Assembly (NCBI RefSeq): GCF_002277955.1
Contig: NZ_CP018477.1
Coordinates: 3,803,206 to 3,867,205, forward strand
Length of the DNA stretch: 64,000 nucleotides
Source: Thermogutta terrifontis
GTDB lineage: Bacteria > Planctomycetota > Planctomycetia > Pirellulales > Thermoguttaceae
Direction of reading: 5' to 3'
A program made the translations under genes and the position numbers. Shown piece by piece: positions 38,297 through 62,178 of the stretch. The notes beneath the pieces are model-generated. The model was not told the DNA's origin. It searched no databases and saw only the letters and a list, made by a program, of their open reading frames with translations. Numbering within the stretch: the stretch's first letter is position 1; each line of letters starts with the position of its first letter.

Positions 38297-38746
38297 ATGG
38301 ATCATCAAGCCCTCTTCTTGATGGGAGTGAAGCTTTTCAACGCAGGAGAGTTTTTCGAGGCCCACGAAGTTTGGGAGGAAGTTTGGAGGGAAAGCGAGGA
38401 GCCGGATCGGTCTTTTTATCAGGGATTGATTCAGTTTGCGGTGGCCCTCGCGCACCTGGAACGGGGGAACCAGGTGGGATTTGAGCGCCTGGTTCAGCGG
38501 GCAGAAGAGCACTTGGCGGGATTTCCAGCCTCATTTGGGGGCATTCGCCTGGGCGAGCTGCGACGGCAGGTTGCGGAGCTGGTTCAATGGGTGGCAGACC
38601 TAAAACCCGGCCATCAGCCATATCCGAGGGGGGATTCTTGCCATACGCTTAGGGAAAACGAAACTTCCCTTGCTAACATGTCGATTCTCGCGTTGATTTC
38701 CGGGGTGAAAATAACGCTTGACGGTGAGGCCACACCTCAAAGCTGA
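38297..38746 (+). CDS. DUF309 family protein
   Basis: 149 residues of the DUF309 family. The signature is FNAGEFFEAHEVWEEVWRESEEPDRSFYQGLIQFAVAL near the N-terminus, with conserved Glu and His in a helical bundle. The function of the family is unknown. The C-terminal third (from about residue 105) is not conserved in type. GAAGGG lies ahead of the ATG. It diverges from nth and stands alone; the next 770 bases have no clear gene. Confidence 0.88.
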   Translation: MDHQALFLMGVKLFNAGEFFEAHEVWEEVWRESEEPDRSFYQGLIQFAVALAHLERGNQVGFERLVQRAEEHLAGFPASFGGIRLGELRRQVAELVQWVADLKPGHQPYPRGDSCHTLRENETSLANMSILALISGVKITLDGEATPQS

Positions 38747-39053
38747 TCGGGTCGGCATTTCTAAGCTTGATCGTCTTATAACACGTAATAAGCATAATGT
38801 GTGAATCTTTGGTTGGAATTGTGCTCATCCGTGGTATGTCTTCTTGTGTGCAGTAAGACCCCGCATCACATACGGCCGGGAGCTGCTTGAGGTGCGTCCG
38901 CGGCACTCGGAAAGGATCACTGGGATTGCCTTGGTTACCGACGGGCTTTCCGGGAATTCTCAGATCGGCCGTTCCCTGAACCGGGGCTTGCAAAGGTTAT
39001 CGGTTTTGGAGATACTGAAAAGCGTGAGGTCGAAAAGACCGGCGCTCAGGTTA
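38747..39053. other. intergenic region upstream of the structured-RNA promoter
   Basis: About 307 bases with no gene that I can support. It leads up to a near-consensus promoter. Confidence 0.4.
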
Positions 39054-39083
39054 TTGACAAATCCCGCCGATACTTCATACAAT
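39054..39083 (+). promoter_or_regulatory. near-consensus sigma-70-type promoter
   Basis: TTGACA at 39054-39059 and TACAAT at 39078-39083, 18 bases apart. It predicts a transcript start near 39090, 427 bases ahead of the next coding start, so it makes either a long leader or a separate RNA. Confidence 0.6.
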
Positions 39084-39089
39084 GAGGCT

Positions 39090-39440
39090 TAGACTGGGCG
39101 GGGAGGGAGTACGGTCTACGCCCTAGTTGGGCCCGCTTTGCCTGTGATCGGCTGGGGTCGCTCAATCGGGCTTGCCAAGGCGGCACGTTTCGAAATTGTC
39201 CTACCGTAGTTATCCGCCTTGTCTGTAGTTCCGTCGGTGCAAGTCAACTCCGCACAGGCGAACATTGCTTGCGTTCAGAGACTCGGCAGGCAGACCGTTT
39301 TGTCCAGCTAAGGTCTGCTCTACCGATGTCGATCACACGGTAGTAAAGCCTGCTGAGAAAGTCCCCACTGGGGGACCACTGCCAAAAGTTGGCAGGGCAA
39401 CTGTGTTTTGGGGCGATGGCGAACCATTTCGTCGCCAAGA
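39090..39440 (+). ncRNA. candidate structured RNA or long leader
   Basis: Many stems follow the promoter: 7 bp at 39177-39183/39214-39220; 7 bp (GCAGACC/GGTCTGC) at 39290-39296/39312-39318; CTACCG/CGGTAG at 39320-39343; GTCCCC/GGGGAC at 39361-39376; CTGCCA/TGGCAG at 39379-39395; and GGCGA/TCGCC with an inner TGG-CGAA-CCA near 39411-39436. I could not match it to RNase P RNA, tmRNA, SRP RNA or a common riboswitch. The end point is arbitrary. Confidence 0.4.
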
Positions 39441-39516
39441 ATATTGTGGTCGGTAGTGTTGGTGTCAGGTGTCTGTTTGTGGTTCTTGCGAGTGAACCTA
39501 GAAAGAGAGGTGTCCC

Positions 39517-39732
39517 ATGCGAAACGTCTTCGATGCCATTAGCGAATTCGGTCACGATGAGGATTTCGATCCTGTTCCCACTGAAGAGTTTGTTCCCACC
39601 GATGCTCCTGCGGGTTCTCGGGCTAAATTGGAAGTGCTGGCGGAGCGTGTCCGGAAAGGCCTTCCGCTTTGGCATCCATTGGATCGAAGTGACTACAGCG
39701 GCCTGACCGGCGCTGTCGAGCCGCGCGACTGA
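39517..39732 (+). CDS. small hypothetical protein
   Basis: 71 residues. The N-terminal half is acidic (EFGHDEDFDPVPTEEF), then a basic helix (SRAKLEVLAERVRKGLPLWHPLDRSDYSGL) whose form suggests a small planctomycete family; I recall similar small proteins, but this is memory, not a search. GAGAGG precedes the ATG at the usual distance. It follows the stem-rich region and may be translated from that long transcript. No known function. Confidence 0.65.
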   Translation: MRNVFDAISEFGHDEDFDPVPTEEFVPTDAPAGSRAKLEVLAERVRKGLPLWHPLDRSDYSGLTGAVEPRD

Positions 39733-39903
39733 GGCTTGTTTTTCGCGAACCGCCCGAGAGCCCGCCGAGTTCTCCTCTGTCCCTGGTGTCGTTCTTCGAA
39801 CCGACCGGACAGACGTTGCTCGGCGGGTTTGTCTTTTCTTGGCAGGTTAAACAGGTCGGAAAGGTTAGATTGGAAATGGCGAAGACGCCGCTCCCGCGGA
39901 AAG

Positions 39904-40203
39904 CTAGGGGAGAGATGGCGGTTCCACCGGTGCGCGGGCTACGAGATACCGCTCTCCTGCCGCGTTGTAAAAAAGTACATCCTGCCTCTCCAGGTCCCAA
40001 ATGGCCATAACTTTCATGAGCCGGGGACCCTGCACACAAAAAAGGGCTGCACAAGGAGCCCCCTTGCGAAAGAAGTAGCTCTCCTGCATCGGAAAAATCC
40101 CCGGCTCCAGTTGATTGGTTTCACAGAGGGTCTGATACACAAATTGCCGAACTTGTTCAGGAATGTCCGGCACATGCTGGAGAGGTTGACGCGGTGCAAT
40201 CAT
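39904..40203 (-). CDS. small hypothetical protein
   Basis: A 99-residue protein, unassigned. The core PEQVRQFVYQTLCETNQLEPGIFPM, then KGAPCAALFCVQGPRLMKVMAIWD and NAAGERYLVARA, is compact and looks like a real fold. It could be a planctomycete-specific family. ATG 40203 is preferred over the TTG at 40263. A plus-strand frame of 198 codons overlaps it, but with Arg/Cys-rich, implausible composition. Confidence 0.6.
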   Translation of the reverse strand: MIAPRQPLQHVPDIPEQVRQFVYQTLCETNQLEPGIFPMQESYFFRKGAPCAALFCVQGPRLMKVMAIWDLERQDVLFYNAAGERYLVARAPVEPPSLP

Positions 40204-40449
40204 GGGATGCTCATCTGGATGCTGCTGGGCAGGCTTGTGCAGGAAGCTCGGCTCCGGTGCCAAAAGGTTGGAAGCCAGGATATGTCACTTATCGACCATC
40301 CTGCCGAACCATCTTTCGCCCAACCGGGATGAGACGCTCTGCGGGAGTTACGGGAAATAAATGAACAATTCCCGTCGCGCAAATTCGACCAACCAGGAAA
40401 AACCAGGTTGGTCAGCGGGTAGGCGGTTATGTCCTGACGGGGCGATTCC

Positions 40450-62135: not shown

Positions 62136-62178
62136 AGATATCCACATGTGATTATAGCCGTTGAAAACGTCCTGTCAA
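62136..62178 (-). promoter_or_regulatory. consensus promoter of the Rrf2 gene with overlapping operator
   Basis: On the minus strand TTGACA (62178-62173) and TATAAT (62156-62151) are 16 bases apart, both perfect. The motif AATCACATGTGGATATCT (62153-62136) begins inside the -10 box and covers the transcript start, so a bound repressor would block RNA polymerase. Confidence 0.75.

Follow-up and report, generated by a model that had tools for sequence, protein, structure and literature searches.

The stem-rich region downstream of the promoter at 39054..39083 (+ strand) in the window (the whole 64,000-nt stretch of Thermogutta terrifontis DNA analyzed) appeared, judging from its sequence, to be a genuine gene-control leader not described before, and not an RNA in its own right: in some relatives, a simpler folded 5′ part is kept, in which a C-rich motif recurs. 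The feature was taken as real and most likely as an mRNA leader, its transcription being predicted; specifically, the region was probably the regulatory 5′ leader of a single-gene mRNA encoding a 71-aa protein, with a motif in this leader read by a trans-acting factor. Together, a strong promoter, a motif recurring near the RNA start, a stem with compensatory changes in relatives, and a family-wide orphan protein made up a defined unit, and since the leader was tied to a conserved orphan protein, the two would be testable together. Regulatory RNA appeared little charted in this strain, because the published Infernal search reported RNase P, SRP, tmRNA, and three riboswitches but no 6S RNA (PMC5673643).

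The sigma-70-type promoter TTGACA-18-TACAAT matched the consensus at 11 of 12 positions, and its hexamers and spacing were the same in G001 (a Thermogutta MAG and the second Thermogutta genome compared, G000 being the genome of the window), which confirmed the near-consensus promoter proposed in the initial annotation. In a scan with spacers of 16–18, it was the only + strand site of the window with at least 11/12 matches; a second match of at least 11/12 (TTGACA/TATAAT) was located at 62178 on the − strand. The stretch 39011–39053 just 5′ of the promoter was conserved together with the promoter and held the short inverted repeat GGTCGAAAAGACC, and it may be a regulator site. The 5′ leader (39084..39516, +) lay between the promoter and the start codon and measured 433 nt as counted from the −10 box, with a predicted transcription start near 39090; toward its end it carried the Shine-Dalgarno-like GAGAGG (39505..39510, +; read from the sequence and identical in G001). 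It was followed by the 71-aa protein gene (39517..39732, +), which was conserved, without an assigned function, and had homologues across the family; the small protein gene with its own ribosome-binding site at 39517 was thus real and conserved. A conserved hairpin with a T-rich tail closed the unit behind the gene and was read, from sequence and fold, as a probable intrinsic terminator (39761..39840, +): its arms CCCGCCGAG (39761–39769) and CTCGGCGGG (39819–39827) paired with each other ahead of the T-rich tail, and its long loop escaped a short-loop scan that covered loops of 3–8 only. The promoter, GAGAGG, the 71-aa ORF, and the hairpin with its T-rich tail therefore delimited a unit of promoter, leader, gene, and terminator, which would be a single-gene unit read as one transcript.

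The sequence comparison was applied to the whole unit in G000 and G001. Identity was 88% in 39011–39083, 56% in 39084–39140, 87% in 39141–39340, 66% in 39341–39425, 71% in 39426–39516, 92% in the gene (DNA), 84% in the 25 bases after the gene, 93% in 39758–39840, and 52% in 39841–39900. All 25 bases of 39200–39224, with UCCUACC inside, were identical in the two genomes. The final 65 bases before the gene showed 84–100% identity in 25-base windows, and therefore the well-conserved stretch of about 200 nt was not the sole conserved part of the leader. From conservation and the alignment fold, this stretch was delimited as a closed multi-hairpin RNA domain (39140..39341, +), whose closing stem (39140–39149 with 39331–39341) enclosed four hairpins in the consensus fold. 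These included (i) a hairpin AAGGCGG/CCGCCUU (39177..39220, +) with UCCUACC (39199–39205) in its loop, and (ii) the longest inner hairpin (39280..39330, +; 39280–39296 with 39312–39330), in which two G-C/G-U type changes relative to G001 kept the pairing.

The initial annotation had counted at least six stem-loops in the segment. The fold of the 351-nt stretch alone was within the range of its shuffles, 19 of 100 of which equalled or exceeded its stability (z −0.99), so the six stem-loops by themselves were no signal, and the hairpins near 39360 and at 39415–39440 fell where conservation with G001 was poor (13/25 in 39350–39374 and 6/25 in 39425–39449). What stood of that claim was the closed domain: the single-sequence fold of 39138–39342 reached z −2.0 (4/200 shuffles), and the two-genome alignment fold of 39136–39345 reached z −3.5 (1/300), the latter against column shuffles that did not keep dinucleotides and with domain limits chosen after the comparison. 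The alignment fold of the whole leader gave z −2.5 (1/200), and 120-column windows ranged from −0.4 to −4.2. Between the two sequences G000 and G001, a double change occurred in 1 of 53 pairs of the domain, so that covariation inside the domain was not established. The earlier statement that the segment held no open frame of quality was borne out for the conserved part: hidden coding in 39141–39340 was considered and rejected, as one + strand frame was open in both genomes, but the 26 substitutions split 7/8/11 over the codon positions and many residues changed.

The domain occurred as a single copy in G000 and in G001. A search of 119 family genomes, in which 73 gave some match at E up to 1, placed it nowhere else, the best match outside G000 and G001 being 20 bases (E 0.005); the model R3 likewise retrieved no further domain in 40 relatives (best other match E 0.005 in G012, model positions 137–196) and, in 26 loci, no copy beyond those of G000 and G001. 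In an unlikely, though not negligible, alternative, the promoter would also supply the conserved domain as an RNA acting in trans, through a dual-function or cut transcript, and its C-rich loop would pair with G-rich sites in other messages. A closed 200-nt domain better conserved than the flanking leader on both sides would suit such an RNA, and sRNAs of other bacteria are known to pair with ribosome-binding sites through C-rich loops; against it, CCYRCC is not complementary to a Shine-Dalgarno of the GGAGG type, a + strand short-loop scan (a weak test) met no terminator-like site between the domain and the gene, and the relatives' element stayed linked to one gene, which points to action in cis. 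The separate non-coding RNA that the initial annotation had put forward received less support, in view of the missing terminator-like site, the single copy, and the position of all 13 genome matches of the relatives' model R2 (E up to 1e-3) upstream of the 71-aa gene, and its other suggestion, a leader of the 71-residue protein, was better supported, in that promoter, leader, and gene stayed together in relatives and the conserved hairpin with its T-rich tail closed the unit behind the gene; the word "regulatory" in that suggestion is what we infer.

Known RNA families were searched in the same stretch. Rfam 15 gave no family at the gathering threshold in the feature and only two tRNAs in the window, and the statement that the segment matched no recognizable RNA family held in this covariance search; at E up to 10, there were three weak matches in 38700–40000, all far below threshold. 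RNase P was rejected, being found elsewhere in the genome, and neither tRNA nor tmRNA lay in the feature. 6S RNA (RF00013) was rejected as well, its best match having E 8, the fold being multi-branched, and the stretch being part of an mRNA. The 6S RNA shape is a long hairpin with one central bubble; the domain was alike in size (about 200 nt) but differed in shape, had no model match, and belonged to an mRNA. It is highly improbable that the domain is a missed 6S-like or other planctomycete housekeeping RNA: it was present in two genomes only, and it ran on into a coding message with its multi-branched fold, even though room for such an RNA is left by the silence of the Rfam 6S model here and by the published Infernal search of T. 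terrifontis R1, in which no 6S homologue turned up (PMC5673643).

Structured cis-regulatory leaders (riboswitches and protein-binding leaders) were the nearest known kind. They shared with the unit, going by its sequence architecture, an own promoter, a folded leader, and one downstream gene, and some of the relatives here had a covarying stem with conserved nucleotides; the differences were that no ligand is known here, no terminator or anti-SD switch was found, there was no Rfam family, and leader size was very variable. The Rhodopirellula-1 motif figures among published candidate RNAs, with Proteobacteria and Planctomycetes as its taxa; the table marks it "probably" cis-regulatory, calls it ambiguous as RNA, and gives no Rfam accession (PMC2864571). 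That motif was listed also for Proteobacteria; the 71-aa gene was sought within its phylum (9 of 199 genomes). Among the titles and abstract openings retrieved on planctomycete RNA motifs and on small proteins of Pirellulales, none described the leader or the protein. A structured mRNA leader is a well-known kind of element, and this instance of it appears to be new as far as those titles and openings reach, with Rhodopirellula-1 compared by its description only.

The leaders of the orthologous genes were collected from the relatives. A contig search for protein loci yielded 292 loci, of which the best 80 were taken; collapsing the 152 protein-bearing loci on identical last 120 upstream bases left 99, the 96 with at least 550 upstream bases were scanned for promoters, and the 82 resulting leaders became 76 without near-duplicates and 72 long enough for a six-mer count. 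Of the 96 regions, 81 had a promoter with at least 10/12 matches in the 550 bases ahead of the gene, compared with 8 of 96 on the opposite strand, and 66 of those 81 promoters had a spacer of 16 bases. By the best promoter match, the leaders of the 82 loci measured 37 to 512 nt, those of L019 and L026 being about 40 nt, which suggests that the 71-aa gene may do without the leader element.

CCCACC, CCTGCC, and CCTACC were the top enriched six-mers in the 72 non-redundant leaders. YCCYRCC occurred in 32 of the 72 (5–12 in ten shuffles; 9/72 on the other strand) and was missing from the other 40. In 21 of 76 non-redundant leaders, CCYRCC followed the −10 box at a distance of 22–35 nt; in a further comparison it did so in 21 of 80 own leaders but behind none of the 73 additional promoter-like sites in these loci, many of which are surely chance matches. 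UCCUACC, the form present in the Thermogutta loop, occurred also in the leader of G003. Runs of at least five T were seen in the last 60 nt before the ribosome-binding site in 38 of 82 leaders (shuffle mean 24), with no clear excess of terminator hairpins; these are perhaps a U-rich translation enhancer.

A leader without regulatory role, with a 5′-terminal hairpin that just protects the mRNA and a remainder that drifts, was held to be unlikely. Length and structure varied among the relatives, the two leaders of about 40 nt were on record, and the 351 nt of the window folded at chance, all as such drift would have it; mere protection, however, does not call for a particular motif set at a constant spacing behind the promoter, nor does drift agree with 87% identity over 200 nt beside 56% and 66% and with the alignment z of −3.5.

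The stem around the motif was evaluated by swapping 3′ parts between the 21 leaders with CCYRCC. The mean stem was reached in none of 5000 swaps, although for 8 of the 21 leaders taken singly, at least a quarter of the swaps gave a stem as good. With the motif fixed and the rest shuffled, enclosing stems numbered, of 42, 31 against a mean of 29.8 at one threshold, not beyond chance, and 27 against at most 26, 18 against 17, and 10 against 9 at the other three thresholds, narrowly beyond chance. The alignment A5 consisted of 18 rows from 17 loci, one row being a second, off-target match of L161; A6, from a search of 14 loci, dropped this row together with L130, L120, and L049 and had 14 rows, with pair counts similar to those of A5. 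In A6, which was fitted to its model, 9 of 11 stem pairs were changed on both sides, a value reached by none of 500 shuffles, and sliding the pairing partner destroyed this covariation signal. The covariation check proposed in the initial annotation thus gave a positive answer for the shorter element of some relatives, and the domain of the window, known from two genomes with its single double change, offered hardly any ground for it.

The covariance model R1 was built from nine leaders (seed alignments A1 and A3 were unused for the models). Among 146 genomes of the order, R1 gave 14 matches with E up to 0.1, spread over 12 genomes: (i) four adjoined the 71-aa gene, namely those of the seeds G013 and G046 and of the non-seeds G162 (E 2.4e-8) and G037 (E 0.0095), and (ii) ten (E 5e-4 to 0.08), one of them lying at a contig end, had flanks that, as far as fetched, contained no copy of the gene, and these count as background. 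Two of the background matches outscored that of G037, and therefore the case of G037 rests on its place beside the gene. In 58 loci, R1 made nine matches outside the seed, six of them in the leader of the gene. Its successor R2 had a single match in each of 13 genomes out of 396 (E up to 1e-3), always upstream of the 71-aa gene, all 13 being genomes of its training set; four more matches had E 0.017–0.093. R2 gave no match in G000–G003, and with filters off the relatives' model gave no match in L043, the locus of the window, in a search of 14 loci. As the relatives' model did not match the window, the Thermogutta domain was treated as a larger structure of another kind that occupies the corresponding position, and its kinship to the relatives' hairpin is suggested via the UCCUACC motif only.

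Self-contained control within the leader was surveyed by simple scans. In 33 leaders, the motif showed no pairing beyond chance with the ribosome-binding site (mean z −0.13; three at −2 or below) or with the rest of the leader (mean z +0.35). Within the 110 nt preceding the gene, 14 of 80 leaders had terminator-like sites, against a shuffle mean of 8.45 (range 3–15), so that these were not clearly enriched. Accordingly, two candidates were not upheld: a motif that masks the ribosome-binding site, with no excess of pairing, and an attenuator before the gene, with no clear enrichment of terminator-like sites. Leaving the domain out of the prediction made little difference to the accessibility of the Shine-Dalgarno in the window. 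The absence of motif pairing together with that of clear terminator enrichment makes a self-contained switch unlikely within the reach of these simple scans. A riboswitch or attenuator, in which a small molecule bound by the domain would switch a terminator or an anti-SD helix before the gene, was accordingly rated as quite improbable: a long structured leader upstream of one gene and a compact multi-branched domain would be in keeping with it, but the scans for a terminator and for SD masking found no expression platform, and the relatives' leaders differed widely in size.

A motif at a fixed place near the 5′ end would fit recognition by a trans-acting protein or RNA. In the preferred reading, a regulatory leader of the message for the 71-aa protein, a strong housekeeping-type promoter would drive a transcript of about 750 nt ending at the hairpin behind the gene, and the leader would fold while being made. 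In relatives with a recognizable element (21/76), a stem at the 5′ end would present CCYRCC about 15–30 nt from the RNA start; in Thermogutta, a longer leader with a 200-nt multi-hairpin domain would hold UCCUACC in a hairpin loop. A trans-acting factor, either a protein that binds RNA or an sRNA whose seed is of the GGYRGG type, would read the presented motif and set the stability or the translation of the message. The factor, the direction of control, and a job common to the Thermogutta domain and the relatives' hairpin are what we infer. A wider and unlikely, though not negligible, extension would make this a lineage-specific regulatory RNA system of the order: a strongly promoted small message in nearly every genome of the family, whose leader would often present CCYRCC to a dedicated RNA-binding factor (the 71-aa protein may itself be this factor and so regulate its own message), and whose Thermogutta version would have grown into a 200-nt domain also acting in trans.

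With E up to 0.001 as the limit, the 71-aa protein was matched in 110 of the 119 genomes of the family, a count that includes at least two weak best matches (G014, E 2e-11; G069, E 6e-8) and two genomes matched in pieces or at a contig end (G063 and G079). A draw of 199 genomes from the phylum gave nine matches, all in one class: besides the genome of the window, two others belonged to its order, and the remaining six were weak (E 1e-6 to 2e-4) and belonged to its class. Apart from these weak matches, the protein is so far known from one planctomycete order. It was 58–85% identical over 28 relatives, with G-H-D-E and P-L-W-H invariant; several relatives had a second, weakly similar copy. Pfam and NCBIfam held no family for it, and one PHROG match had E 0.1 only; a PDB sequence search gave a best E of 1. 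AlphaFold2 predicted two short helices (mean pLDDT 84 for the best model and 64–80 for the other four), and Foldseek returned no match of the model in the PDB. The protein constituted an orphan family, with no family model or structure explaining its function.

The surroundings of the gene were also compared, and no gene neighbor was common to all its loci. Behind the unit of the window lay a convergent small gene (39904–40263, − strand) with 81% DNA identity to G001, and 11 of 48 loci had a − strand ORF cluster 0.6–1.1 kb downstream, which by eye encoded the same kind of protein. Another − strand ORF cluster, pointing away from the gene, was located about 450–900 bases upstream of it in 19 of 48 relatives' loci; by its look its product may be a YjbQ/UPF0047 protein, and the window has a DUF309 gene in that place. 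One record labelled Candidatus Nealsonbacteria, L148 (JABMRB010001313.1; 5715 bases), encoded the 71-aa planctomycete protein and was equal in length to one contig of G019, a member of the family's genomes; the record looks misnamed or misbinned.
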